Made by a program: the position numbers and the translations under genes. Shown piece by piece: positions 3,000 to 33,969 of a DNA stretch of 35,251 nucleotides (its first letter is position 1; every line of letters begins with the position of its first letter). Location: contig CALVMP010000011.1 of the NCBI GenBank assembly GCA_944346655.1, forward strand, positions 1 to 35,251, given 5' to 3'. The notes under the pieces were generated by a model that searched no databases, was not told the origin of the DNA, and saw only the letters and a list, made by a program, of their open reading frames with translations. The DNA comes from an uncultured Clostridia bacterium (lineage in GTDB: Bacteria > Bacillota > Clostridia > Christensenellales > Borkfalkiaceae).

Positions 3000-4422
3000 A
3001 GGTGTTTGAATGTTCATTTTTATCGCTGTCTTCAGCCGCGGCGGCTTCCTCCGCAATGCGCGGTTGCCCCGCATATATGCGCCGTTCAAGCCATTTTTTG
3101 CGCACGGCGAGGAAGGCGTAGTAAAAGCCGGTAAAGGCAAAGAAAATCGCCACGTACGCGGCGTACAGCCCGAGTATGTACAAAAGATTGAGTTCATAGT
3201 TCCAAATCCTCAGCGTCCACACCGGCGGCAAGGCAAAGGGCAGCGGGTTGTTTTGCGTAAAGGCGTAGTTGGGAATAATCAATTCGTCGGGGGATAGCAT
3301 GTAACCGTCGTCCGTCGTCCACGTCATGGAGGCGGAGGTAACCAAAGCGCTGCACACCGAAGCGGCGATAATCACAACAAAGTAGTATATAAGGGGCGCA
3401 ATGCAGTCACGCATGGCAAATTTATAGTGCCCCAGCGCCGAAGGCAGCACGCTCAGCGCAAATAAAAGCGCGTGGGTGACCATAAAGTACAGAATGGAGT
3501 AACTGCAAAAAATGCCGTAATTGCTCATGTCGTCCCGGCCGAAGTAAACAAACACCGTCACGGCTCCGGCGGCATGTACGAAAAATGAGGTTTCATATAA
3601 AAATTTCTTTTTCAAAAATACGGAAAAAGAGGCAATGTAAACGCCTATGTTGCAAATAAAGAGGGGCACGCACGCAAGCACGGTGTGGTATACGTTGTAG
3701 CCGTCGCCCATCACCATGCTGTCCTTGGAGTGGTACTGTATCAAAAGCACTATCGCCATCGCCCCTAAGTATGCGTCCTGTCTGTCCTTGGGCTTATTCT
3801 TTAAAAAGTAGTAGCAGGCAACCGTGAAAGCGGCAAGGATAATTATCGCAAGCGCGTGCCATACCGTAAAGTTTTTAAAGCGCAAAAAGCTGTCCGAAGG
3901 TATAAGGTTTATATCGAAAAAGTTTTCGAATATGTTTAAAGGCATGCACGCGAGCATGGCGGGCAGCAGCCACAAAAAGCTTTTCGCTTCGGCTTTAAAA
4001 CCGTCGCGCACAAAGAACAGAATGCATATATAGGCATATATGGCGCAATGAATGCAAAAAAGCGTAATGTTCAGCCACTTGGGCATAAACAGATTGACGC
4101 TGTTGTAAATTTCCTGCGCCGGGGTTTCGGCTACCTTGGTTATGTCGAAAAAATCGCCGGAGAGTGCAAGGCTTAAAATTATCGGCAGGGGCAGTATGTA
4201 CTTCGCAACGTCGGCGCAACACCGCTTCTTATAGAATGCCGCCATTAAAATAAGCAGCAGTCCCGCCTTTTTTATCCATTGGCTCAGAACAAACAGGGGG
4301 TTGAATTCCGAAAAGCGGTTGAATATGTAATAGTCGGATATGGTAAACGTCAGAAGCAGCGCGCACAGCGCGGCTGCAAGCGACAGCCATTTGAGCTGAA
4401 CTTCTATTATTCTCTCTTTCAT
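2998..4422 (-). CDS. Polytopic membrane protein, possible YwaF/TMEM164-like C-terminal half
   Basis: A 474-residue integral membrane protein with roughly a dozen hydrophobic segments and a charged, Ala/Glu-rich cytoplasmic tail. The second half (about residues 215-370: IQYHSKDSM, then VPLFICNIGVYIASFSVFLKKK, then FFVHAAGAVTVFVYF) recalls the YwaF/TIGR02206 family, related to TMEM164, with its conserved PLxxC-N and H-x-x-G-A elements. YwaF proteins are about 230 residues, so this is twice the usual length and the N-terminal half is unassigned. The start at 4422 lies 6 nt after a perfect TATAAT on the minus strand with no ribosome binding site, so a leaderless transcript is predicted. No function is claimed. 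Confidence 0.8.
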   Translation of the reverse strand: MKERIIEVQLKWLSLAAALCALLLTFTISDYYIFNRFSEFNPLFVLSQWIKKAGLLLILMAAFYKKRCCADVAKYILPLPIILSLALSGDFFDITKVAETPAQEIYNSVNLFMPKWLNITLFCIHCAIYAYICILFFVRDGFKAEAKSFLWLLPAMLACMPLNIFENFFDINLIPSDSFLRFKNFTVWHALAIIILAAFTVACYYFLKNKPKDRQDAYLGAMAIVLLIQYHSKDSMVMGDGYNVYHTVLACVPLFICNIGVYIASFSVFLKKKFLYETSFFVHAAGAVTVFVYFGRDDMSNYGIFCSYSILYFMVTHALLFALSVLPSALGHYKFAMRDCIAPLIYYFVVIIAASVCSALVTSASMTWTTDDGYMLSPDELIIPNYAFTQNNPLPFALPPVWTLRIWNYELNLLYILGLYAAYVAIFFAFTGFYYAFLAVRKKWLERRIYAGQPRIAEEAAAAEDSDKNEHSNT

Positions 4423-4428
4423 AGCTTA

Positions 4429-4457
4429 ATTATAATATATATGCAGGTATAAGTCAA
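4429..4457 (-). promoter_or_regulatory. sigma-A promoter of the 474-residue membrane protein gene (leaderless start)
   Basis: On the minus strand TTGACT (4457-4452), 17-nt spacer, TATAAT (4434-4429), then six bases and the ATG at 4422-4420. There is no room for a ribosome binding site. Confidence 0.85.
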
Positions 4458-22805: not shown

Positions 22806-25313
22806 ATGGTAGAAAATTACGTTGTAACCGGCATGACGTGCTCGGCATGTTCCTCGGGCATCGAACGTGCCGTCGGCAAAATGGAGGGAGTCAACTCGGT
22901 CGAAGTTTCCCTCATGGGCAAGTCCATGAAGGTAGACTATGACGAGAGCGTGGTTTCGGAGGAGCAGATTTTTTGCGTCGTCCGCGACCTCGGCTACGGA
23001 GTTTACACCGAACAGAACGCACCCAAACCCAAAGAAGTGCGCACCGACAGGGTGCTGTTTATAAAGTTCATAATCTCCGTCGTTGTGCTCGTGCCCCTCA
23101 TGTATGTTTCGATGGGTCACATGTGGGGCGCCCCCGTGCCCGCCTTTTTGAATCCCGAACTTGGCAACGAAAGGTGGTTTGCGCTCTACCAGCTCATACT
23201 GGCGGCAGTCGTAATCGGCGTCAACTATCAGTACTTTTCGCGCGGGTTCGTGGCGCTTGTCAAAAGAGTGCCCAACATGGATACGCTCGTCGCGCTCGGC
23301 TCGGGAGTGTCCTTTGCCTATTCAATCGCGCTCACCGTTCTGATATTCCTCGGAATCGACGCGCACCACAACGCGATGAACCTGCACTTCGAGAGCGCAG
23401 CCATGATTTTAGCTCTCGTCGACGTCGGCAAGTGGCTCGAAGAAAAGGCAAAGCGCAAGACGGGCGACGAGATAGAAAAACTTTTAAAGCTCGCCCCCGA
23501 CTCTGTAACCGTCGAAAAAGATGGCGAACTTGTCACCCTGCCCGTTTCGCAGGTCAGGGTGGGCGACGTGGTAATCGTCCGCCAGGGCGACTATGTCCCC
23601 GTCGACGGAACGGTTATTGAGGGCTCGTCCTTTATAGATAAATCGGCAATCACGGGCGAAAGTCTGCCCGTCGAGGTTTCCGTCGGCGACTTTGTCACGA
23701 CCGCCGCGCTCAACAAAAACGGCGTAATCAAGGTAAAGGCGGCAAAGGTGGGGGGAGACACCACCCTTTCAAAGATTGTCAAAATGGTCAGGGAGGCTGG
23801 CGCTTCAAAGGCGCCAATTCAGAAGCTTGCCGATAAAATCGCGGGCATATTCGTCCCAGCCGTCGTGGCAATCGCCCTCATAACCTTTATCGTGTGGCTG
23901 CTGATAGACGTAAATATGTACGGCGGGTTCGTGCCCGAACACAGCGTAACCTACGCCATATCCGTGCTCGTAATCTCCTGCCCGTGCGCGCTCGGGCTTG
24001 CAACCCCCGTCGCAATCATGACGGCTACCGGCAAGGGCGCCTCCCTCGGGGTGCTCTATAAGGATGCGGAAAATCTCCAAAGGCTGTCCACGGTTAACTG
24101 CGTGCTGCTCGATAAAACGGCAACGCTCACCGTCGGCAAACCCTCCGTGTGCGACGTCGAAACCTTCGGCAGAGACGAAGAGGAGATTTTGTCAATCGCC
24201 TCTGGCATAGAAAAGCACTCCAATCACCCCCTCGCAAAGTGCGTTGTCGACTACCACCCCAAAAGCTTTGAAGTAACAAATTTCGAATATATCGTCGGGC
24301 GCGGCGCCAAGGCGGAAAGCGGCGGAAAGGCTTACCTTTTGGGCAATGCAAAATTGCTTTCGTCGGCACATATTCCTGCACCAATCTCCAAAAAAGCCGA
24401 CGAGCTCGCCTCGCAGGGCAAGACCGTTTTATACCTTGCGGAAAACGGAAAGGCGGTCGCACTCATAGCCGTTTCGGATAGTTTAAAGGAGGGCGCAAAG
24501 CAGACGGTTTCCCTCCTCAAAAAGCGCGGCATGCGCGTGGCAATGCTCACGGGCGACAACTCCACCTGCGCAAAGGCGGTTGCGGACAGCGTGGGGATTG
24601 AAGAGTTCGTCGCCGAGGTCATGCCGGAAGATAAGCTAAAGGCTGTATCCAACGTTCAGCAGGTGGGCGGGGTCGTTGCCATGGTGGGCGACGGCATAAA
24701 CGATTCCCCCGCCTTAAAGCAGGCAGACGTCGGCATAGCCATAGGTTCGGGCACGGACGTCGCCATCGACTCCGCGGGCGTCGTGCTCGTCTCGGACGAT
24801 ATAAAAACGCTCGATACCGCATTCGATTTAAGCAAAGCCACCGTGCGCAATATAAAGGAAAATCTCTTCTGGGCGTTTATCTATAATATCGTAATGATTC
24901 CCGTCGCCGCGGGCTGTTTTTCGGCTCTCGGCTTTACGTTCAATCCCATGATAGCCGCCGCCTGCATGTCGCTGTCCTCGCTCTTCGTCGTGGGCAATGC
25001 ATTGAGGCTGCTTCTTTACAAAAATAAAAATCTGAAAAAACCCGCCGGACAGGTCGGGTCGTTTCAGGAAAATAAAATAAATCAAAAGGAAGATAGTATG
25101 AAAAAGATTATTTCAATAGAAGGCATGTGCTGCGAGCACTGCGCAAACCGCGTCGAAAAGGCTCTCTCCGCCGTACACAATGTTGTGTCGTGCGACGTAA
25201 AACTTAAAAAGAACTGCGCCGTAGTCCGCAGCCGCGAGGAAGTTTCGGATGAGGAGATCAAAAAAGTCGTCGAGGACGCGGGCTACAAGGTGACGGGCAT
25301 AGAGAACAAATAA
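22806..25313 (+). CDS. copA: Copper-transporting P1B-type ATPase with C-terminal CopZ-like domain
   Basis: An 835-residue copper exporter. Residues 1-70 form an HMA domain with Cys12-x2-Cys15 (GMTCSAC). Eight transmembrane segments, the actuator loop TGES (283-286) and the ion-site C392-P-C394 follow. The phosphorylation motif reads D436-K-T-A-T-L-T, with Ala439 where Gly is nearly invariant. The nucleotide-binding loop has SNHPLA, then MLTGDN and the hinge VGDGINDSPAL. After a Lys/Gln-rich linker, residues 765-835 form a second HMA domain with GMCCEHC (Cys776, Cys779), resembling free CopZ. CPC indicates Cu(I) export. It has a promoter with an operator-like repeat and is followed by an ArsR-type regulator. 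Confidence 0.95.
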   Translation: MVENYVVTGMTCSACSSGIERAVGKMEGVNSVEVSLMGKSMKVDYDESVVSEEQIFCVVRDLGYGVYTEQNAPKPKEVRTDRVLFIKFIISVVVLVPLMYVSMGHMWGAPVPAFLNPELGNERWFALYQLILAAVVIGVNYQYFSRGFVALVKRVPNMDTLVALGSGVSFAYSIALTVLIFLGIDAHHNAMNLHFESAAMILALVDVGKWLEEKAKRKTGDEIEKLLKLAPDSVTVEKDGELVTLPVSQVRVGDVVIVRQGDYVPVDGTVIEGSSFIDKSAITGESLPVEVSVGDFVTTAALNKNGVIKVKAAKVGGDTTLSKIVKMVREAGASKAPIQKLADKIAGIFVPAVVAIALITFIVWLLIDVNMYGGFVPEHSVTYAISVLVISCPCALGLATPVAIMTATGKGASLGVLYKDAENLQRLSTVNCVLLDKTATLTVGKPSVCDVETFGRDEEEILSIASGIEKHSNHPLAKCVVDYHPKSFEVTNFEYIVGRGAKAESGGKAYLLGNAKLLSSAHIPAPISKKADELASQGKTVLYLAENGKAVALIAVSDSLKEGAKQTVSLLKKRGMRVAMLTGDNSTCAKAVADSVGIEEFVAEVMPEDKLKAVSNVQQVGGVVAMVGDGINDSPALKQADVGIAIGSGTDVAIDSAGVVLVSDDIKTLDTAFDLSKATVRNIKENLFWAFIYNIVMIPVAAGCFSALGFTFNPMIAAACMSLSSLFVVGNALRLLLYKNKNLKKPAGQVGSFQENKINQKEDSMKKIISIEGMCCEHCANRVEKALSAVHNVVSCDVKLKKNCAVVRSREEVSDEEIKKVVEDAGYKVTGIENK
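25098..25313 (+). CDS. Possible internally initiated CopZ-like copper chaperone (in frame within copA)
   Basis: Inside the copA frame, ATG at 25098 is preceded at ideal distance by AAAAGGA (25084-25090). Starting there would give a 71-residue protein, MKKIISIEGMCCEHC onward, which is exactly one HMA domain and ends at the copA stop. Free CopZ chaperones have this size and start. The sequence thus allows both a fused domain and a separate chaperone from one frame. Whether the internal site is used is unknown; the alternative is a relic of a former two-gene operon that lost the copA stop codon. Confidence 0.45.
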   Translation: MKKIISIEGMCCEHCANRVEKALSAVHNVVSCDVKLKKNCAVVRSREEVSDEEIKKVVEDAGYKVTGIENK

Positions 25314-25348
25314 GACATTAAAAAATTTATTCCGTCAAAATAAATGCA

Positions 25349-25376
25349 TTCACACCTTTTCATATGTACTTATAAT
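25349..25376 (+). promoter_or_regulatory. Promoter of the ArsR-family gene
   Basis: TTCACA (25349-25354), 16-nt spacer, TATAAT (25371-25376), followed directly by the operator-like repeat. Confidence 0.6.
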
Positions 25377-25404
25377 TAACCTAAGCATTAAGTTTAGGTT
25401 AATT
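25374..25404. promoter_or_regulatory. Inverted repeat at the ArsR-gene start: operator, possibly also terminator
   Basis: AATTAACCTAA (25374-25384) and TTAGGTTAATT (25394-25404) are perfect 11-bp arms that begin inside the -10 box, the classic place for an ArsR/SmtB operator. TTTTTTT runs from the end of the repeat, so as RNA it could also end the copA transcript. Confidence 0.6.
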
Positions 25405-25422
25405 TTTTTGTGAGGTGATATT

Positions 25423-25761
25423 ATGCAGGAAATGATGCTTTTAGACAGGCGCACGGCAGACCTCGTGCGGGAATACGTGCCCGAAGGCGACGTGCTCGAC
25501 TCCGTCGTCATGTTCTTTTCAATCTTCGCCGACCCCACGCGGGTAAGAATGCTCTCCGCCCTCGCCATATCCGAAATGTGCGTAACCGACCTTTCGCGCG
25601 TGCTCTCCATAAACCAGACGACAGTTTCGCACCAGCTCAGGCTCTTAAAAAACCTCGGCATAGTCAAGTGCACCCGCCGCGGCAAAATCGTCTTTTACTC
25701 CCTGACCAACGACCTTGTAAACGACGTCATGCTCAAGGGTGTCGAATTCTTAGGCATGTAA
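25423..25761 (+). CDS. ArsR/SmtB-family metal-responsive repressor
   Basis: A 112-residue winged-helix repressor. FFSIFADPTRVRMLSAL starts the domain, ISEMCVTDLSRVLSINQTTVSHQLRLLKNLGIVKCTRRGKIVFYSLT covers the recognition helix and wing. The alpha-3 element EMCVTDL carries a single Cys where CadC/SmtB types have the ELCVCDL metal site with two, so the metal site is atypical. The N-terminus has no extra Cys. GAGGTG precedes the ATG at 25423; a second in-frame ATG at 25432 is possible. Its position after the copper ATPase suggests a copper or other metal response, but this is inference. The gene carries its own operator-like repeat, consistent with autoregulation. Confidence 0.9.
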   Translation: MQEMMLLDRRTADLVREYVPEGDVLDSVVMFFSIFADPTRVRMLSALAISEMCVTDLSRVLSINQTTVSHQLRLLKNLGIVKCTRRGKIVFYSLTNDLVNDVMLKGVEFLGM

Positions 25762-26016
25762 TCCCCGCTTGAGCCCCATTGTGTAAAGGGAGTCCTCAGT
25801 CGACCGCCATTGTCATCCTGAGCCTGCCGAAGGATCTCTTTGCTTTGCCTCGGTAATGATAAATCCAAAAGGCTCCCTTGTGTAAAGGGAGCTGTCGACC
25901 GTAGGGAGACTGAGGGATTGTTTCCGCGGCGCAGTCGCACAGTATCTCACCACAATGCAGGCGGAGCCTGCAATTCATTAACAATCCCCGTTGCGGCAGC
26001 GGGGATTGTTAATGAA
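25762..26016. repeat. Palindromic intergenic repeat mosaic (MITE-like)
   Basis: No gene is visible in the 315 nt between the ArsR gene and sigK. TTGTGTAAAGGGAG occurs at 25779-25792 and again at 25878-25891, each followed by GTCGACCG. A GCTCCCTT/AAGGGAGC hairpin lies at 25872-25892, the palindrome TGCAGGC-GGA-GCCTGCA at 25956-25972, and a perfect 17-bp inverted repeat at 25974-25990/26000-26016. The phrase TGTCATCCTGAGC near 25812 is of a kind I recall in dispersed repeats of gut bacterial genomes. No transposase is encoded. Confidence 0.65.
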
Positions 26017-26046
26017 GAATAGTACAACCCTACAATTTCATATGCT
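26017..26046 (+). promoter_or_regulatory. Candidate sigma-E promoter of sigK
   Basis: GAATAGT (26017-26023), 15-nt spacer, CATATGCT (26039-26046), close to the sigma-E pattern (KMATATT...CATAnnnT). sigK is a sigma-E gene in B. subtilis. It abuts the repeat mosaic. Confidence 0.35.
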
Positions 26047-26076
26047 ATTAAACTGATTGAAAATGAGGTTTAATAG

Positions 26077-26772
26077 ATGATTTTTGACGTATTAGGTCTG
26101 CTGTTCTCCAAAATTTTCGTTCTCACGGGCGCCGTGCAGGGCAAGGGTTCATTCCCCAAACCCCTGCCGCCCGAGGAGGAGAAAAAATACCTCGCTTTAG
26201 CCCGCGCGGGCAACGCCGAGGCGAAAAACATTCTCGTCCGCCACAACATGCGGCTGGTTGCCCATATCGTAAAAAAGTACTCGGGTGCCGCCGAAAACGA
26301 CGATCTTATGTCTGTCGGCTCCATAGGGCTCATAAAGGCAATCAATACCTATCAGGAGGGCAAGGGCACGGCGCTCGCCACCTACACCGCCCGCTGTATA
26401 GAAAACGAAATATTAATGCTCCTCCGCGCGGGCAAAAAGCACAAGAACACCCTTTCGCTCTCCGACCCCGTCGGGTTCGACAAGGACGGCAACGAACTGA
26501 CCATAATGGACGTGGTGGCTGAGGAGGAGTCAGTCTTTTCCCAGGTCGAGCACTCCATACGCCGCGAAAAGTTCATAAAGCTCTTAAAGGGCGTTTTAAA
26601 CATGCGCGAGTACACCATAATTACCCTGCGCTACGGGCTGGAGGACGGAGTTCCCCTGCCGCAGAGGGAGGTAGCAAAGCGGCTGGGCATATCCCGTTCG
26701 TACATATCCCGCATAGAAAAAAAGGCTATACAAAAGGCTCGCGAACAGCTCTCCGCCGAAGATTTCCTTTAA
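26077..26772 (+). CDS. sigK: RNA polymerase sigma-K factor precursor (late mother cell), uninterrupted
   Basis: A 231-residue sigma factor. The first about 20 residues (MIFDVLGLLFSKIFVLTGAV) are a hydrophobic pro-sequence, followed by FPKPLPPEEEKKYL, which matches sigma-K (FPQPLSSSEEKKYL in B. subtilis). [59 protein letters not shown] is region 2, and VAKRLGISRSYISRIEKKAI is region 4. The frame is continuous, so there is no skin-type element of the kind that splits sigK in B. subtilis. GAGG lies eight bases before the ATG. No SpoIVF or BofA gene is in the window, so processing cannot be judged. Confidence 0.96.
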   Translation: MIFDVLGLLFSKIFVLTGAVQGKGSFPKPLPPEEEKKYLALARAGNAEAKNILVRHNMRLVAHIVKKYSGAAENDDLMSVGSIGLIKAINTYQEGKGTALATYTARCIENEILMLLRAGKKHKNTLSLSDPVGFDKDGNELTIMDVVAEEESVFSQVEHSIRREKFIKLLKGVLNMREYTIITLRYGLEDGVPLPQREVAKRLGISRSYISRIEKKAIQKAREQLSAEDFL

Positions 26773-26802
26773 AGGCGCCCCTTTATTTCTTACTTTAATA
26801 AC

Positions 26803-26831
26803 TTGACAGTGCCTCTGTCGCGTGTTATAAT
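26803..26831 (+). promoter_or_regulatory. Consensus sigma-A promoter of the tyrS leader
   Basis: Perfect TTGACA (26803-26808), 17-nt spacer, perfect TATAAT (26826-26831). The leader ORF ATG starts at 26838, six bases later. Confidence 0.9.
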
Positions 26832-26837
26832 TTTTAT

Positions 26838-26897
26838 ATGACAGGCTTGAAATTTGCACATCTCTATTACCGCGAAAACGTATTGCTCAAATGGTAA
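26838..26897 (+). CDS. tyrS leader peptide (19 residues, tandem Tyr codons)
   Basis: A 19-codon ORF, MTGLKFAHLYYRENVLLKW and stop TAA at 26895-26897. Codons 10 and 11 are TAT TAC (26865-26870), two adjacent tyrosines just where the first RNA stem begins. The ATG is six bases after TATAAT, at the predicted +1, so the peptide would be translated from a leaderless mRNA end. A ribosome waiting for Tyr-tRNA at these codons would cover the 5' arm of the 26867-26918 hairpin. That is how trp- and phe-type leader peptides work, and the product here would sense tyrosyl-tRNA supply for the synthetase gene downstream. The ORF is too short for statistical gene finding; the evidence is the arrangement. Confidence 0.7.
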   Translation: MTGLKFAHLYYRENVLLKW

Positions 26898-26976
26898 TGC
26901 GCGTTTTGTCGCGGGTAAATTAACTTGGCTGTATGGGGCGGTTTACCTGCGGGTATGCCGCTTTTAATTTTATTTA
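26867..26976 (+). promoter_or_regulatory. Transcription attenuator of tyrS (three alternative hairpins)
   Basis: Segment 1 (26867-26880, starts TTACCGCG) pairs with segment 2 (26902-26918, ends GCGGGTAA), 14 bp with two small bulges. Segment 2 (26909-26920) can instead pair with segment 3 (26941-26952), 12 contiguous bp with three wobbles. Segment 3 pairs with segment 4 as the terminator: GCGG (26938-26941) with CCGC (26958-26961), and TACC (26944-26947) with GGTA (26952-26955) across TGCG, followed by TTTTAATTTTATTT. Stalling at the Tyr codons frees segment 2 and favours the 2:3 antiterminator, so tyrS is read. Ample Tyr-tRNA gives 1:2 and 3:4, and termination. Confidence 0.75.
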
Positions 26977-26989
26977 CGAGGAAAATATT

Positions 26990-28177
26990 ATGGGAATTTA
27001 TGAAGAACTCCGCGCCCGCGGGCTCATTGCACAGGTCACCGACGAAGAGGAGATACGCGAGCTTATCAACAACGGCGGCGCACGCTTTTATATTGGCTTC
27101 GACCCCACCGCCGACAGCCTGCACGTCGGGCACTTCATGGCTTTATGCCTTATGAAGAGGTTGCAGATGGCGGGCAACAAGCCCGTGGTTTTAGTGGGCG
27201 GCGGCACGGGTCACATAGGCGACCCCTCGGGCAGAACGGACATGCGCACCATGATGACCGACGAAACCATCAACCACAACTGCGAATGTTTCAAAAAGCA
27301 GATGGAGCGCTTTATCGAGTTCGGCGAGGACAAAGCCGTCATGGTCAACAACGCCGACTGGCTTTTAAAACTCAACTATGTCGAACTCTTAAGGGAGGTC
27401 GGCGCATGCTTTACGGTAAACAACATGCTCCGCGCCGAGTGCTACAAACAGCGCATGGAAAAGGGGCTCTCCTTCCTCGAGTTCAACTATATGATAATGC
27501 AGGCGTACGACTTCTGGTACTTGAGCGAGCACTACGGCTGCAACATGCAGTTCGGCGGCGACGACCAGTGGTCAAACATGCTCGCGGGCACCGAGCTCAT
27601 AAGAAAAAAGACGGGCAAGGACGCCTATGCCATGACCATAACCCTGCTACTCAACAGCGAGGGCAAAAAGATGGGCAAGACGGCAAAGGGCGCCGTGTGG
27701 CTGGACGAAAACAAGACCTCGCCCTACGACTTCTACCAGTACTGGCGCAACATAGACGACGCCGACGTCATGAAGTGTATAAAGATGCTCACCTTCATTT
27801 CCCTTGAGGAAATTGGAGAAATGGAGAAGTGGGATCCCTCCCGCATAAACGAAAAGAAGGAAATCCTCGCATTTGAACTGACAAAGCTCGTGCACGGCGA
27901 GGAGAAAGCCAAAGCCGCGCAGGCCCAGGCAAAGGCGGCGTTCGGCGGCGATAGCGAAAACCTTCCCGAAAAAACGCTGTCCGTGGAGACAAAAAACATA
28001 ATCCCCGTGCTCGTCGCGGCGGGTATCTGCACCTCCAACGGCGAGGCGAGAAGGCTCATTGCCCAGGGCGGAGTGTCGTTAAACGATACCAAAGTCACCG
28101 ATATCAACGCCCCCGTTTCGGACGGCGACGTCATCCACAAGGGCAAAAAGGTTCATGTGAGAATAAAATTCAACTGA
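26990..28177 (+). CDS. tyrS: Tyrosyl-tRNA synthetase
   Basis: A 395-residue class I synthetase that charges tRNA-Tyr. The nucleotide motif HVGH (residues 45-48) is the HIGH signature, and K227-M-G-K-T231 takes the place of KMSKS, as in Bacillus TyrRS (KFGKT). YIGFDPTADSLHVGH, GGDDQWSNMLAG and the C-terminal S4 domain (ARRLIAQGGVSLND...VRIKFN) are typical. GAGGA (26978-26982) sets the start at 26990; earlier in-frame codons lie in the attenuator. Expression is governed by the upstream attenuator. The next gene follows after 11 nt, so yigZ is likely on the same transcript. Confidence 0.98.
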   Translation: MGIYEELRARGLIAQVTDEEEIRELINNGGARFYIGFDPTADSLHVGHFMALCLMKRLQMAGNKPVVLVGGGTGHIGDPSGRTDMRTMMTDETINHNCECFKKQMERFIEFGEDKAVMVNNADWLLKLNYVELLREVGACFTVNNMLRAECYKQRMEKGLSFLEFNYMIMQAYDFWYLSEHYGCNMQFGGDDQWSNMLAGTELIRKKTGKDAYAMTITLLLNSEGKKMGKTAKGAVWLDENKTSPYDFYQYWRNIDDADVMKCIKMLTFISLEEIGEMEKWDPSRINEKKEILAFELTKLVHGEEKAKAAQAQAKAAFGGDSENLPEKTLSVETKNIIPVLVAAGICTSNGEARRLIAQGGVSLNDTKVTDINAPVSDGDVIHKGKKVHVRIKFN

Positions 28178-28188
28178 ATTCCACCCCC

Positions 28189-28821
28189 ATGTCCAACTAT
28201 CTTTCCGTCCAAGGCGAATGCCGCACGTTAAAAGTTATCGAAAAATCCAAGTTCATAACCAACTCCGCGCACGTCGAGGGGGAGGAGCAGGCAAGGGATT
28301 TTATTGCAAAAATTTCAAAGGAGTTCTCGGATGCCACCCACAATTGCTACGCATATATATGCGATGCAAAGGGTAATTTCCTCCGATTTTCGGATGACGG
28401 CGAACCCTCGGGCACGGCTGGAATGCCCATGCTCGACGTGCTCAAAAATAAAAAACTCGTGCAGACGGCTGTGGTCGTTACGCGCTACTTCGGCGGCGTA
28501 AAACTTGGTGCAGGCGGCTTGGTCCGCGCATACTCCGGAAGCGTTGCCGAAAATCTTGCGGCGGCAAAAATCGTGTCGTATGAGCAGTGCGCCGAGGGAG
28601 AGTACTCCGTCGACTATTCCACCGCCGAGCTCGCAAGGCGGTACTTCGACGGCAGGGACTGCAACGTCATATCCGTAAACTACGACAGCGGCGTCACCTT
28701 CACCGTTGCCGTGAGGGAGAGGGACGAACAGACCTTCGACGGCGAACTTATTAACCTTTTAAACGGCAGGGTGCAAATCTCACAAAAGCGCCGCTATTAT
28801 TTCCCCTTCGCTCTCAATTGA
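28189..28821 (+). CDS. yigZ: YigZ/IMPACT (UPF0029) family protein
   Basis: A 210-residue two-domain protein. The N-terminal UPF0029 domain has KFITNSAHV, F.DATHNCYAY, FSDDGEPSGTAGMPMLDVL and VVVTRYFGGVKLGAGGLVRAYS, all family hallmarks. The C-terminal about 75 residues are the DUF1949-type ferredoxin-like domain. Related eukaryotic IMPACT proteins act in translational stress control, but the bacterial function is not known. It starts 11 nt after tyrS with no strong ribosome binding site, which suggests translational coupling. A strong hairpin follows. Confidence 0.94.
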   Translation: MSNYLSVQGECRTLKVIEKSKFITNSAHVEGEEQARDFIAKISKEFSDATHNCYAYICDAKGNFLRFSDDGEPSGTAGMPMLDVLKNKKLVQTAVVVTRYFGGVKLGAGGLVRAYSGSVAENLAAAKIVSYEQCAEGEYSVDYSTAELARRYFDGRDCNVISVNYDSGVTFTVAVRERDEQTFDGELINLLNGRVQISQKRRYYFPFALN

Positions 28822-28861
28822 GCCGCGGAACCACATGCGGCGGCATATAACCCACAATAAA

Positions 28862-28894
28862 ACCAAAGCCTGCGGAGGAACGCCGCAGGCTTTA
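28862..28894 (+). terminator. Hairpin terminator after yigZ
   Basis: AAAGCCTGCGG pairs perfectly with CCGCAGGCTTT across AGGAACG. The U-run after it is short (ATGTGTTATTTG). Confidence 0.7.
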
Positions 28895-29003
28895 TGTGTT
28901 ATTTGTAGTTTTTATTGCTTGAGCCTATGTTATAGCCTTTGCTTACAGAAAAAACGAACAGCGGCAATCAGGGACAGTTTTATAATTTCAATTGAAACTT
29001 GCG

Positions 29004-30407
29004 TTAAAATTCGATCGCCTTTTCGATATAGCTTTCAAGCTCGGATATGGGCAGGCGAATCTGCTCCATGCTGTCGCGGTCGCGCACGGTTACGGTGTCG
29101 TTCTCGAGCGTGTCAAAGTCAACGGTAATGCAGAAGGGCGTGCCTATCTCGTCCTGCCTGCGGTAGCGCTTGCCGATGGAACCCGTAACGTCGTACGTCA
29201 CGCAGAATTTTTTGGCGAGCTTTTTATATACCTCGTCCGCCTTTTCGGAAAGGTTCTTTTGCAGGGGCAGGATTGCCGCCTTGTAGGGAGCGAGGAAGGG
29301 ATGGAGGTGCAGAACGGTTCTCACGTCCTTTTTGGTCTCGTCCAGAACTTCCTCGTCGTATGCGTCGGTGAGGTATGCGAGCACCATTCTCTCGACGCCT
29401 AAAGAGGGCTCTATAACGTAGGGAATATACTTCTCGTTGGTTACGGGGTCGGTGTACTCCATGCTCTCGCCGCTCTCGTTCTGGTGCTGGGTCAAATCAT
29501 AGTCCGTCCTGTCGGCAACGCCCCACAACTCGCCCCAGCCGAAGGCAAAGTTATACTCAAAGTCGGTAGTCGCCTTGGAGTAGAACACAAGCTCTTCGGG
29601 GGAGTGGTCGCGAAGCCTTAAATTTTCCTCCTTCATGCCGAGCGAGAGGAGGAAGGAGCGGCAGTATTCCTTCCAGTAGGAAAACCATTCAAGGTCGGTG
29701 CCGGGCTTGCAGAAGAACTCGAGCTCCATCTGCTCGAACTCCCTCACGCGGAATATAAAGTTTCCCGGCGTGATTTCGTTTCTGAACGACTTGCCTATCT
29801 GCCCTATGCCGAAGGGCACCCTCATTCTCGTTGAACGCTGCACGTTTTTGAAGTTTACAAAAATGCCCTGCGCCGTCTCGGGGCGGAGGTAAACGGTGTT
29901 CACGCTGTCCTCGGTAACGCCCTGAAAGGTCTTGAACATGAGGTTGAACTTTCTTATGGGCGTAAAGTCGCTCTTGCCGCATACGGGGCAGACTACGTTA
30001 TGTTCCTTTATGAACGCCTCCAAGGCGTCGTTGTCCATGGCTTCGACCTTTACGTCCATGTTGTGCTTGGCAACGTAAGCTTCAACAAGGTTGTCGGCGC
30101 GGTGCCTCGTCTTGCAGTTCTTGCAGTCCATAAGGGGGTCGGAAAATCCTCCGAGGTGCCCCGAAGCCTTCCACGTCCTCGTGTTCATGAGTATGGCGCA
30201 GTCGACGCCGCAGTTGTAGGTGTTTTCGGTCACGAACTTTTTCCACCACGCCTTTTTTATGTTGTTTTTAAGCTCTACGCCCAAAGGACCATAGTCCCAC
30301 GTGTTGGCGAGTCCGCCGTAAATTTCACTTCCGGGAAAGATAAATCCCCTGTTCTTGCAAAGGGCGACCAGCTTCTCCTGCGTCACCGCTCTCTTCTTTT
30401 CAGCCAT
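29004..30407 (-). CDS. glyQS: Glycyl-tRNA synthetase, homodimeric class II type
   Basis: A 467-residue class II synthetase that charges tRNA-Gly as an alpha2 dimer, unlike the alpha2-beta2 form of many bacteria. Motifs: [24 protein letters not shown] near the N-terminus, a zinc-type pair CKNC...CPVC (about residues 90-150), motif 2 [14 protein letters not shown]-like [51 protein letters not shown], and motif 3 [18 protein letters not shown]. The C-terminal anticodon-binding domain follows. The start MAEKKRAV at 30407 has GAAGGAG at proper distance. A longer frame to 30446 lacks its own site. Confidence 0.97.
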
Positions 30408-30457
30408 AAAAAACTCCTTCGGCGCACTTGGCAAAAGTGCACACAAAAATATTATAG

Positions 30458-30463
30458 CAACAT
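30458..30463 (-). promoter_or_regulatory. Extended -10 promoter of glyQS
   Basis: On the minus strand TGCTATAAT (extended -10) lies about 50 nt before the start. A second set, TTGACT-17-TAAAAT, lies just upstream. A GCACTT/AAGTGC hairpin stands between the -10 and the ribosome binding site. Coordinates mark the -10 hexamer and are approximate. Confidence 0.55.
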
Positions 30464-30585
30464 TTTATATTACAACCCCGTTCAAGTCAAGCGAATGGTG
30501 CCTCTCTTGCGCTTCGCGGCAAAAAACATTTTTATATAATTTTCCAAAAAGTTAAGCAAAAGTATGTACAATTGTGTCAAATATG

Positions 30586-30594
30586 TGATATAAT
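30586..30594 (+). promoter_or_regulatory. Extended -10 promoter of fhs
   Basis: TGATATAAT at 30586-30594 (TGn plus TATAAT). No good -35 is seen. AAGAGG ahead of the ATG at 30625 is the ribosome binding site. Confidence 0.55.
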
Positions 30595-30624
30595 CTTAGC
30601 GGAGTATAATTTTAAGAGGTTGCT

Positions 30625-32286
30625 ATGCTTAGCGATATTGAAATAGCAGAGAGCTGTAAGTTAAAAGATATTCGGGAGATTGCGCAAAAGCTCGGGCTTT
30701 CGGAGGACGATCTCGAACTTTACGGAAAGTACAAGGCAAAGATAAACGTTAAAAAATTCAATCCGAAAGCAAAGCTCATTCTCGTTACCGCCATCAACCC
30801 CACGGCGAGCGGCGAGGGCAAAACCACCGTGTCGATAGGTCTTGCCGACGGCATGGCGCGGCTCGGCAAAAAGGTCTGCCTCGCCCTCAGGGAACCCTCT
30901 TTGGGTCCCGTGTTCGGCGTAAAGGGGGGCGCAGCCGGCGGGGGATACGCGCAGGTAGTGCCCATGGCGGATATCAACCTCCATTTCACGGGCGATCTGC
31001 ACGCCATAACTTCGGCAAACAACCTGCTGTGCGCCATGATAGACAACCACATTTTCCGCGGCAACGCGCTCGACATTCAGAAGGTGAACTTCCACCGCTG
31101 CATGGACATGAACGACAGGGCGCTGAGGGATATAACCCTAACCTGCAAAGCCGGCTCCATGAAGGGTTGTCGCGACTACGACCGCAAAGAAAGTTTTGAA
31201 ATAACCGCCGCCAGCGAGGTAATGGCAATTCTCTGTCTTTCGCGCGACCTTGCCGACTTAAAGGAGCGCCTCGGCAATATAGTGGTGGGCGTAAATTCCA
31301 AGGGCGAATATGTATACGCCCGCCAGCTCAACGCCCACGGCTCCATGGCAACCCTTTTAAAGGACGCCATAAATCCCAACCTCGTCCAGACCTTAGAGGG
31401 TACCCCCGCAATAATCCACGGCGGTCCCTTTGCAAACATAGCCCACGGCTGCAATTCGGTCCGCGCAACCTATGCCGCAATGACTTTTGCCGACTACGCC
31501 GTCACCGAGGCGGGCTTCGGCGCCGACCTGGGGGCTGAAAAATTCCTCGACACCAAGTGCCGCGTCGCGGGCGTTTCCCCCGACTGCGTGGTGGTGGTTG
31601 CCACCGTAAAGGCGCTCAAGCTGCACGGCGGGGCAGATAAAAACAATCTTGCCGCAAGCGACGTCGCCTCGTTAAAGGCGGGGCTTCCCAATCTTTTAAA
31701 GCACGTCGAAAACATGAAAAAGGTATATTCCCGTCCCGTCGTCGTAGCCATGAACAGGTTTGCAACCGATTCCGAAGAGGAGATTAAAACGGTCATGCAG
31801 GCATGCGGGGAGACGGGAACTGAGGCAATCTTCACCGACGTATTCTTAAAGGGCGGCGAAGGGGGAGAGGAACTCGCCGAAGCCGTAATAAAAGCTTGCG
31901 AAAACAAGAAGCCCCTTACATACGCCTACAACCTTCAGGACGATATAAAGACCAAGATAAACGACATAGTTACAAAGGTTTACGGCGGCGACGGAGCCGT
32001 CTACTCCGAACAGGCGGAAACCTCCTTAAGGGAGATCGAATCAAACGGCATAAAGGGTCTGCCGGTAATAATCGCCAAAACGCAGTATTCCCTCTCTGAC
32101 GACGCAAAAAAGCTTGCCCGTCCCACGGGATTTACCGTTCACATAAGGGATATAATCTATAAGGGCGGCGCAAACTTCATTGTTGCCATAGCGGGCGACA
32201 TAATGCTCATGCCCGGGCTCGGCAAAATCCCTTCCGCCGAAAAAATCGATATCGACGAGAACGGAAACATAACAGGGCTTTCCTGA
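30625..32286 (+). CDS. fhs: Formate-tetrahydrofolate ligase
   Basis: A 553-residue enzyme that joins formate to tetrahydrofolate with ATP, giving 10-formyl-THF for purines, initiator tRNA and, in acetogens, the methyl branch of the Wood-Ljungdahl pathway. The P-loop TASGEGKTT is at residues 60-68. REPSLGPVFGVKGGAAGGGYAQVVPM, NLHFTGDLHAI, DMNDRALR and EAGFGADLGAEKF are family-specific blocks. Length is usual (about 555). It is followed after 33 nt by glnS without a terminator. No methylene-THF dehydrogenase or acetyl-CoA synthase gene lies nearby, so nothing here argues for acetogenesis. Confidence 0.98.
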   Translation: MLSDIEIAESCKLKDIREIAQKLGLSEDDLELYGKYKAKINVKKFNPKAKLILVTAINPTASGEGKTTVSIGLADGMARLGKKVCLALREPSLGPVFGVKGGAAGGGYAQVVPMADINLHFTGDLHAITSANNLLCAMIDNHIFRGNALDIQKVNFHRCMDMNDRALRDITLTCKAGSMKGCRDYDRKESFEITAASEVMAILCLSRDLADLKERLGNIVVGVNSKGEYVYARQLNAHGSMATLLKDAINPNLVQTLEGTPAIIHGGPFANIAHGCNSVRATYAAMTFADYAVTEAGFGADLGAEKFLDTKCRVAGVSPDCVVVVATVKALKLHGGADKNNLAASDVASLKAGLPNLLKHVENMKKVYSRPVVVAMNRFATDSEEEIKTVMQACGETGTEAIFTDVFLKGGEGGEELAEAVIKACENKKPLTYAYNLQDDIKTKINDIVTKVYGGDGAVYSEQAETSLREIESNGIKGLPVIIAKTQYSLSDDAKKLARPTGFTVHIRDIIYKGGANFIVAIAGDIMLMPGLGKIPSAEKIDIDENGNITGLS

Positions 32287-32319
32287 CCGTGCAATTAATT
32301 TTTACAGGTTTATATAAAA

Positions 32320-33969
32320 ATGCAACTTCCCGAAGCTACAAATTTTATCGAACAAATCATCAATGAAGAGCTGGAGGCGGGCAAATTCGAAAGCCGCGGC
32401 AACCTCATCCAGGTGCGTTTCCCCCCGGAGCCCAACGGCTATCTTCATATCGGTCACGTAAAGGCGCTGTGCATAAACTTCGGCGTCAAGGAAAAGTACC
32501 ACGGCAAGCTCAACCTGCGCATGGACGACACCAACCCCGCCAAGGAGGACTACGAGTACGTAAACTCCATAATCGAAGCGATAAAGTGGCTGGGCTTCGA
32601 ATACGACAAATTAGTATTCGCTTCCGACTATTACGACGAGTTATATGCCATTGCCGAAAAATATATTATGGAAGGCAACGCCTATGTGTGCGACCTTTCG
32701 GCTGAAGAAATTACGGCTACCCGCGGCACGCTGACGGAGCCCGGCACAAATTCCCCCTACCGCAACAGGTCTGTGGAGGAAAATTTAAAGCTCTTCCGCG
32801 AAATGAAGGCGGGCAAATATCCCGACGGGGCTAAGGTCTTAAGGGCAAAGATAGATATGTCGTCGCCAAACATCAACATGCGCGACCCCGTAATCTACCG
32901 CATAGCCCACGTTCCCCACTACCGCCAGGGCGATAAGTGGTGCATATATCCCATGTACGACTATGCCCACCCCCTTTCCGACGCGATAGAGGGCATAACC
33001 CATTCGCTGTGCTCGCTCGAGTTTGAAAACCACCGTCCCTTATACGACTGGGTTATCGAAAAAGCGGGCTTCCCCGCGCCCGTGCCCAGACAGATAGAGT
33101 TTGCGCGCCTCAACATAACCAACATGCTCATGTCCAAGCGGTATTTGAAAAAGCTTGTCGACGAAGGTTTTGTGCGCGGCTGGGACGACCCCCGCATGCC
33201 CACGCTTATGGGGCTCAAAAACCGCGGAGTTCCCCCCGAGGCGCTCAAAAAATTCTGCGCCGACGTCGGCGTTGCCAAAAACTATTCGGTGGTCAGCCTC
33301 GCCCAGCTTGACGAGTGCATCCGCGACGAACTCAACAAAACGGCTGAACGCGCCATGGCAGTGTTCGACCCTGTAAAGCTCACAATAACCAATTATTCGG
33401 GCGAGGAGGAACTCGACTTCGAAATCAACCCCCTCGACGGCTCGGGCGCAACGCGCAAGGTAAAGTTTACCGGCACGGTCTATATCGACCGCGACGACTT
33501 CGCCTTGAACCCTCCCCCCAAGTACAAGCGCCTCACGGTGGGTTCCAATGTCCGCCTCAAGGCTGCGTACATCGTCCGCTGCGACGACGTTGTTTTGGAT
33601 GAAAACGGTGAGGTAAAGGAAATTTTATGTACCTACTTCCCCGAAACGCGTTCGGGCAGCGAGGTAAAGAGCGAGGTAAAGGCAAAGGGCGTCATTCACT
33701 GGGTGGACGCAAAGTACGGCAAAGATGTTCAGGTGAGGCGGTATAAGCCCCTTTTAAAGGACGAGGAGTACCCCGACCAGGACTATGCCGAACGCCTCGA
33801 TAAAGAGAGCGAAACTATTTTCTACGCCAAGTGCGAACCGTACGTTGCCGAGGGGGAGGACGAAAAGCCCTACCAGTTCATGCGCACGGGTTACTATAAA
33901 AAGTGCACCGACGGTGGCGAGGCAGTTCTTTCCGAAATCGTCACCTTAAAGGATAACTTCAACAAATAA
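32320..33969 (+). CDS. glnS: Glutaminyl-tRNA synthetase
   Basis: A 549-residue class I synthetase that charges tRNA-Gln directly. RFPPEPNGYLHIGHVKAL carries HIGH at residues 43-46 and M271-S-K-R274 is the KMSKS counterpart. NLRMDDTNP, SPYRNRSVEENLKLF, HSLCSLEFENHRPLYDWV and the beta-barrel anticodon domain (YTKVKFTGTVYIDRDDF-like KVKFTGTVYIDRDDF) match GlnRS rather than GluRS. Most Firmicutes lack GlnRS and use GatCAB transamidation, so its presence marks a lineage that acquired it. The ribosome binding site is weak (ACAGG, far from the ATG), which suggests coupling to fhs. Confidence 0.97.
   Translation: MQLPEATNFIEQIINEELEAGKFESRGNLIQVRFPPEPNGYLHIGHVKALCINFGVKEKYHGKLNLRMDDTNPAKEDYEYVNSIIEAIKWLGFEYDKLVFASDYYDELYAIAEKYIMEGNAYVCDLSAEEITATRGTLTEPGTNSPYRNRSVEENLKLFREMKAGKYPDGAKVLRAKIDMSSPNINMRDPVIYRIAHVPHYRQGDKWCIYPMYDYAHPLSDAIEGITHSLCSLEFENHRPLYDWVIEKAGFPAPVPRQIEFARLNITNMLMSKRYLKKLVDEGFVRGWDDPRMPTLMGLKNRGVPPEALKKFCADVGVAKNYSVVSLAQLDECIRDELNKTAERAMAVFDPVKLTITNYSGEEELDFEINPLDGSGATRKVKFTGTVYIDRDDFALNPPPKYKRLTVGSNVRLKAAYIVRCDDVVLDENGEVKEILCTYFPETRSGSEVKSEVKAKGVIHWVDAKYGKDVQVRRYKPLLKDEEYPDQDYAERLDKESETIFYAKCEPYVAEGEDEKPYQFMRTGYYKKCTDGGEAVLSEIVTLKDNFNK

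Follow-up and report, generated by a model that had tools for sequence, protein, structure and literature searches.

Here we report a leader RNA in front of the tyrosyl-tRNA synthetase gene (tyrS) of an uncultured Clostridia bacterium of the family Borkfalkiaceae, which, judged from its sequence and its relatives, very probably attenuates transcription through the translating ribosome in response to the charging of tRNA-Tyr, and which appears to have a leaderless start. It lies in a stretch of 35,251 nt (contig CALVMP010000011.1 of assembly GCA_944346655.1), referred to below as the window. The leader combines an ORF with cognate codons, an antiterminator and a terminator that share a strand, a strand 1 placed over the codons, and the cognate gene.

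In the proposed mechanism, transcription would start at or beside the A of the leader ATG, so that the ribosome would begin on a leaderless 5' end. With ample Tyr-tRNA, or without translation, strands 1 and 2 would pair (1:2), pairing of strand 2 with strand 3 (2:3) would be blocked, and the 3:4 hairpin would terminate transcription, keeping tyrS low. With scarce Tyr-tRNA, the ribosome would wait at the Tyr codons and cover strand 1; strand 2 would then pair with strand 3, the terminator would be prevented and tyrS would be transcribed. A ribosome that has reached the stop codon would leave strand 2 uncovered, so its release must be quick or well timed.

Organization of the locus

The 5' neighbour of tyrS is a sporulation sigma factor SigK-like gene, which ends 30 nt before the -35 box of the leader promoter. 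The parts of the leader and their order, established from the sequence and its comparison with relatives, are as follows.

26077-26772, forward strand: sporulation sigma factor SigK-like gene (NCBIfam PRK05803.1, 291.5 bits against a cut-off of 252)
26803-26831, forward strand: promoter, TTGACA (26803-26808), 17 nt, TATAAT (26826-26831), with extended TG
26838-26897, forward strand: leader ORF of 19 codons, MTGLKFAHLYYRENVLLKW followed by a stop codon, ATG on the predicted +1 (ORF reading; synonymous excess in relatives)
26865-26870, forward strand: tandem Tyr codons TAT TAC, kept in 9 of 9 rows of the sub-group, window included
26870-26914, forward strand: 1:2 outer helix, 26870-26874 with 26910-26914 (RNAalifold consensus, 17 rows)
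26879-26901, forward strand: 1:2 inner hairpin, 26879-26887 with 26893-26901 (RNAalifold consensus; conserved over 44 rows)
26909-26952, forward strand: 2:3 antiterminator, 26909-26920 with 26941-26952, 12 consecutive standard pairs
26937-26962, forward strand: 3:4 terminator hairpin, 26937-26947 with 26952-26962, one U-U mismatch, then the U-rich tail
26962-26976, forward strand: U-rich tail of the terminator (read from the sequence)
26978-26982, forward strand: Shine-Dalgarno-like GAGGA of tyrS (read from the sequence)
26990-28177, forward strand: tyrS, tyrosine--tRNA ligase, 395 aa (TIGR00234, 405.7 bits)

The promoter, called perfect in the original prediction, does match the consensus at 12 of 12 positions and carries the extended TG; among positions 25000-30000, where 3.7 promoter-like sites are expected, a scan found 5, and this was the sole 12/12 site. 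The 19-codon ORF with its TAT TAC is present as had been described, and its ATG, 6 nt past the end of the -10 box, agrees with the claim that it begins at the predicted +1. The 34 nt that follow the terminator leave too little room for a second promoter.

Two further observations concern the surroundings of the locus. At 25349-25404 a promoter-like TTCACA-16-TATAAT is overlapped by a 13-pair inverted repeat (AATTAACCTAA...TTAGGTTAATT) directly 5' of the gene at 25423, which by reading of its translation encodes a small ArsR-like regulator; the repeat is possibly its operator. Three synthetase-like genes, tyrS included, fall within 7 kb (26990-33969), the others being a glycyl-tRNA synthetase-like ORF (29004-30446, reverse strand) and a glutaminyl-tRNA synthetase-like ORF (32320-33969, forward strand), both named by reading only.

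Leader peptide

Among 73 leaders, 72 of tyrS and one of aroF, Tyr is the commonest residue (297 of 1501). Each leader holds 2 to 8 Tyr, 55 have 3-5 Tyr codons and 70 contain YY or YxY, as in MKRSLAVAIYGYAYYAVA, MNIYAIKNGYVYYCAYYRYGMYVL and MKGFMRQKEYYQTYAYAYYYGDTTI; the window peptide, with 2 Tyr codons, is among the poorest versions. Frames 2 and 3 of the same DNA contain 1.7% and 2.5% Tyr, and 1000 nucleotide shuffles gave a mean of 65.6 Tyr and a maximum of 89 against the 297 observed.

Where codons differ by a single base, the synonymous share was 0.84 against 0.25 expected in 17 ORFs of genus g4, 0.57 against 0.18 in 14 ORFs (11 of g12) and 0.71 against 0.22 in the window and its 8 nearest relatives, figures that are descriptive because the pairs compared are not independent. 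The Tyr codons show TAT/TAC swaps at several positions. The leader ORF appears to be kept as coding sequence, and its translation is predicted.

Probable leaderless start

All 72 leaders for which upstream sequence is available have, in this position, a sigma-70-like promoter matching at least 9 of 12 consensus bases. From the end of its -10 box to the leader ATG there are 6 nt in 49 leaders, 7 in 6, 9 in 16 and 10 in 1, which leaves little room for a Shine-Dalgarno sequence. This near-constant spacing supports a putative leaderless start at the predicted +1.

The pattern TTGAC-N16-19-TANAAT-N5-7-ATG has 28 matches in this genome, 19 of which lead into ORFs of more than 60 aa, and the reversed pattern has 0. 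Setting the last spacer to N8-38 yields 141 matches, spread over 31 spacings and with some promoters counted twice, so that spacings of 5-7 are about twofold richer per position. Genes starting at +1 look common in this genome from these counts; no other clear leaderless attenuator was found among the 28 sites. Near-perfect promoters also lie 5-7 nt before the ATG of a Fur-like regulator (MENKRNTEQ..., named by reading) at 2542-2579 on the forward strand and of a membrane protein (MKERIIEVQLKW...) at 4420-4457 on the reverse strand. In the available part of a survey of leaderless genes, the Firmicutes cases concentrate in Lactobacillales and Mycoplasma (PMC3160421).

RNA helices and their conservation

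A single-sequence fold of 26832-26989 had a z-score of -2.21, with 4 of 200 shuffles as low. Taken alone the window fold would be weak evidence; conservation lifts the helices above chance. The RNAalifold consensus fold of a 17-row alignment of leaders consists of 1:2 plus 3:4. The original prediction had drawn 1:2 as one continuous helix (26867-26880 with 26902-26918); a 1:2 pairing does exist, but its conserved form is an outer helix around an inner hairpin. Strand 1 takes in the last base of the Tyr codon TAC (26870), and the leader stop codon (26895-26897) sits in the 3' arm of the inner hairpin. The predicted 2:3 helix was found with all 12 standard pairs in series, as was the 3:4 hairpin with its tail, and the three pairings exclude each other as had been proposed, the antiterminator and the terminator sharing a strand.

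In the 17 rows, 5 pairs of 1:2 had changed on both sides, a number reached in 2 of 500 shuffles, and 8 cells of 3:4 had done so, reached in 7 of 500; 2:3 showed no covariation beyond shuffles in this alignment, its covariation score being matched in 272 of 500. Over 44 rows spanning the family, 87.9% of the 2:3 cells are paired (at most 49.2% in the slid control) and 94.4% of those of 3:4 (at most 46.5%); with the inner hairpin included the range is 88-94% against at most 52%. Cells changed on both sides number 24 in 2:3, 54 in 3:4 and 36 in the inner hairpin, each equalled in 0 of 500 shuffles, although these shuffles, like the others, ignore kinship and therefore overstate significance. Covariation of 2:3 is visible here both by cells and by score. 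Counted by pairs, 4 of 2:3 were doubly changed, not above shuffles (115 of 500), 5 of 3:4, weakly above them (44 of 500), and 8 of 9 of the inner hairpin (1 of 500 shuffles with as many). Co-varying helices in relatives had been named beforehand as a check on the attenuator; on the 44-row alignment the helices are kept and co-vary by cells.

Column 157, in strand 3, appears to be the most telling. It is C in one row set and G in another, and both of its alternative partners co-change, strand-2 column 101 (GC 22, CG 18) and strand-4 column 167 (CG 22, GC 14); the flip may trace to few events. The outer 1:2 helix is conserved column by column within the genus, and such conservation is absent across genera. 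A U-rich tail 3' of the hairpin is present in most rows of alignments A1 and A2.

Folding with and without a ribosome

In the full RNA without a ribosome, the mean pair probability of the terminator exceeded 0.5 in 40 of 44 leaders. A stalled ribosome was modelled with strand 4 unmade and the RNA masked from its 5' end to a point 13 nt beyond where a Tyr codon begins, a mask length that is an assumption. Under this mask, 34 of 44 leaders had a 2:3 probability above 0.5 at their best Tyr codon, and the other 10 never reached 0.5. The window scored 0.88 for the terminator in the full RNA and 0.99 for 2:3 under the mask. In three leaders (L212, L221, L223) 2:3 outcompetes the terminator in the ribosome-free full RNA. 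When the unmasked RNA was cut after strand 3, 2:3 still exceeded 0.5 in 16 of 44, window included (0.61), so that in these RNAs the block of 2:3 by 1:2 is incomplete at equilibrium.

The 34 RNAs, whose Tyr codons are placed where stalling would free strand 2, also bear on a different explanation of the leader, namely that the nascent peptide itself arrests the ribosome, in the manner of TnaC, with free tyrosine or the peptide sequence as what is sensed. Such arrest draws support from non-Tyr residues, which are also kept synonymously within groups (SLAVAIYGYxYY, ENGRYYIYAYAY, FAHLYYR); these group motifs are, however, explained by shared recent ancestry, and between genera the peptides diverge greatly while the Tyr codons stay. 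We regard peptide arrest as unlikely and favour sensing of tRNA-Tyr charging by the translating ribosome.

Distribution among relatives

A tyrS match at E<=1e-40 was found in 88 of 93 genomes of the genus. The upstream regions read comprised 71 of type 1, the window's kind, and 15 of type 2, whose TyrS is 63-68% identical to that of the window. The leader is present in 17 of the type-1 and 7 of the type-2 regions and absent from 54 and 8, respectively; its distribution within the genus is patchy.

Two models were built, R1 from 17 leaders and R2 from 44. The first 17 leaders were collected with a pattern that required a -10 box before the ATG and at least one Tyr, the next batch with a pattern that required a promoter, supplemented manually by L161 and L225, and 29 later ones by R2 alone, a model without the promoter but with the leader sequence, Tyr codons included. 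R1 recovered 6 of 7 type-2 leaders unseen in its building, then leaders in other genera. Over 80 named tyrS loci its single match at E<0.001 was L039, the same genus member as L027, and none of eight weaker matches there (E 0.009-0.53) lay just 5' of tyrS on the same strand.

R2 gave 74 matches at E<=1e-4 in 398 genomes of the family. The DNA of all 74 genomes was read, and 72 have the leader ORF before tyrS, the two of g15 not; L253 was left out of the count, being the same genome and place as L165, and for leaders other than that of the window, the N-terminal sequence of the protein encoded 3' of them served to identify tyrS. The 72 genomes belong to one family and to genera g1, g3, g4, g8, g9 and g12, and their number is a lower bound because the large searches used stricter filters. 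Twenty-eight of these leaders lie outside the R2 training set; each of them combines the promoter with an ORF holding no fewer than 2 Tyr codons. An order-wide sample yielded 8 matches in 396 genomes, seven in the family and one a known false match, and a class-wide sample yielded 2 in 391 at E<=1e-5, both family members. The R2 matches in G345 and G352 (E 2.8e-6 and 5.1e-6) were rejected as false positives; they cover the end of a secG-like gene, have no such promoter and lie before an rnr-like gene (both genes named by reading).

A short ORF with Tyr codons before tyrS in relatives, which the original prediction had proposed looking for, is thus kept in 72 genomes of six genera. The opposite pattern, hairpins kept and the ORF lost, had been named as evidence against it and is not the rule: L019 alone keeps the hairpins with a frameshifted leader ORF, and four further loci (L018, L020, L023, L026) without the ORF keep, by eye, the terminator only, together with a promoter-like site 3' of it. 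In six type-1 relatives of one sub-group such a site, matching 8-9 of 12 positions, lies 3' of the terminator in a shared position, so that the attenuator may govern only part of tyrS there.

In the four loci without the ORF the terminator may originally have been that of the 5' sigK-like gene. A more general form of this idea, in which the terminator everywhere merely ends the sigK-like transcript and promoter and ORF are incidental, finds a precedent in some genus members whose locus lacks the leader (for example L130, L143 and L148, by eye): 3' of the sigK-like gene and ahead of the tyrS promoter they have a similar hairpin with a T run, which may be the origin of strands 3 and 4. Three points speak against the idea: the promoter of the leader comes after sigK and ahead of the terminator, coding selection acts on the ORF, and strand 2 keeps its complementarity to strand 3 across genera. 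We consider it very unlikely as an account of the leader.

T-box comparison and history of tyrS

An Rfam search of 26770-27010 returned no family at E<=5, and the Rfam amino-acid leader families had no match to the leader. The T-box covariance model (RF00230) was among those without a match, in line with the earlier statement that no T-box precedes this tyrS. Elsewhere in the same genome the T-box model matched six places at E<=0.001, of which one exceeds its cut-off; they precede what we take, from the translations, to be asnB, trpE, pheS, cysS, leuS and ileS. Of 20 tyrS loci sampled outside the family, nine have a T-box directly 5' of the gene: five scored over the gathering score, and four of the 13 re-tested loci matched at E<=0.001. 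The re-test left out L111 and L043, the latter with a T-box some 1.1 kb 5' of tyrS. Control by a T-box, or by a different leader that binds tRNA or a ligand, which those nine loci would make a natural guess, is extremely improbable here given the empty Rfam search and a leader of only about 150 nt that is mostly ORF plus terminator. Translational control, with the tyrS ribosome-binding site masked and no termination, is as hard to credit: the window hairpin does end 15 nt before GAGGA, but GAGGA is outside every conserved helix, the U-rich tail follows the hairpin in most rows, and in L008, L013 and L016 the hairpin is about 100 nt or more from tyrS.

A TyrS tree places 18 of 18 sampled type-2 proteins, from this genus and five others of the family, beyond a 100/100 branch, on the other side of which 30 type-1 proteins stand together with 47 from other families; the tree took 47 of 75 other-family tyrS loci and 15 of 17 leader-bearing type-1 proteins, with an outgroup chosen by similarity to type 1. 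The SigK-like C-terminal motif is found in 68 of 71 type-1 loci (17 of 17 with the leader) and in 11 of 15 type-2 upstream stretches, so both tyrS types are mostly at the same place. A likely history is that a foreign tyrS took over the site of the resident gene and the leader was retained. On the tree, type-1 proteins whose genes have the leader are interspersed with those whose genes lack it, which takes at least 4 changes; this fits repeated loss and may include gains. One genome with a leader-bearing type-2 tyrS carries at L327 (G018:C27) an additional tyrS, of type 1, that contains an in-frame TAA.

A sibling of the leader was found before aroF-tyrA in family f3, which belongs to the same order. 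In G716 (L309:1830-4295) a promoter, the leader MKKNIIANAFYYFYFYGFNKS and a hairpin precede genes for DAHP synthase and prephenate dehydrogenase, and also an aroB-like fragment (by reading); in G399 (L329) MKNLNRNAFEYFYFYGFMKS stands before the same gene pair, named by likeness to G716. This Phe/Tyr-rich, apparently leaderless leader occurs in 2 of 43 genomes of f3.

Relation to known systems and significance

The tyrS leader fits a classical attenuator in its predicted working and as an RNA family matches none in Rfam. It shares the cognate-codon ORF, the alternative hairpins and the synthetase gene with attenuators of the trp, his and phe type and with those of pheST in gamma-proteobacteria and of trpS and leuS in Streptomyces, as far as the available part of an actinobacterial survey of 2005 describes them (PMC1262725); it differs from the trp, his and phe type in its amino acid and gene (tyrosine and tyrS), in its occurrence in Clostridia and in a leader that apparently starts at +1. 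The same part of that survey has Firmicutes synthetase genes mostly under T-box control and none under classical attenuation (PMC1262725).

The attenuated RNA of trpE(G) in Sinorhizobium meliloti likewise begins with the ATG of its leader, trpL, in the part of the source available (PMC7298713). It differs in amino acid (tryptophan), in regulating a biosynthetic gene and in lineage (Alphaproteobacteria); the likeness noted here is one of architecture. Leader-peptide attenuators have also been predicted for his operons of some Bacillales, Eubacteriales and Erysipelotrichales, Firmicutes in which the usual control is missing; these His-leader attenuators differ in responding to histidine and in serving a biosynthetic operon, and a leaderless start goes unmentioned in the available part of the source (PMC9413887). 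The tyrS T-box acts on the same gene and the same signal, tRNA-Tyr charging, and differs in sensing it by direct tRNA binding, whereas the tyrS leader would sense it by the ribosome.

Each element thus has precedent, and the combination, the gene, the amino acid and the lineage appear new in the open-access literature searched. Searches of that literature returned no description of a tyrS leader-peptide attenuator, as the original prediction had supposed. If the reading is correct, this would be, within the open-access literature searched, the first Tyr-codon attenuator known for tyrS and, in Clostridia, the first leader-peptide attenuator with a leaderless start. In a wider view, much of the family would have swapped the tyrS T-box for a leaderless Tyr-codon attenuator in which the peptide sequence matters too, through nascent-chain-assisted stalling; the device would have outlived the replacement of tyrS and have the aroF-tyrA sibling, and leaderless attenuators would be general in the order. 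As a whole we hold this to be possible but doubtful.

With its T-box matches and the tyrS leader, a single cell would use two unrelated RNA devices to monitor how far different tRNAs are charged, and many related bacteria use another RNA device for tyrS control. The leader also suggests that translation starting at +1 serves real-time sensing by the ribosome in these Clostridia.
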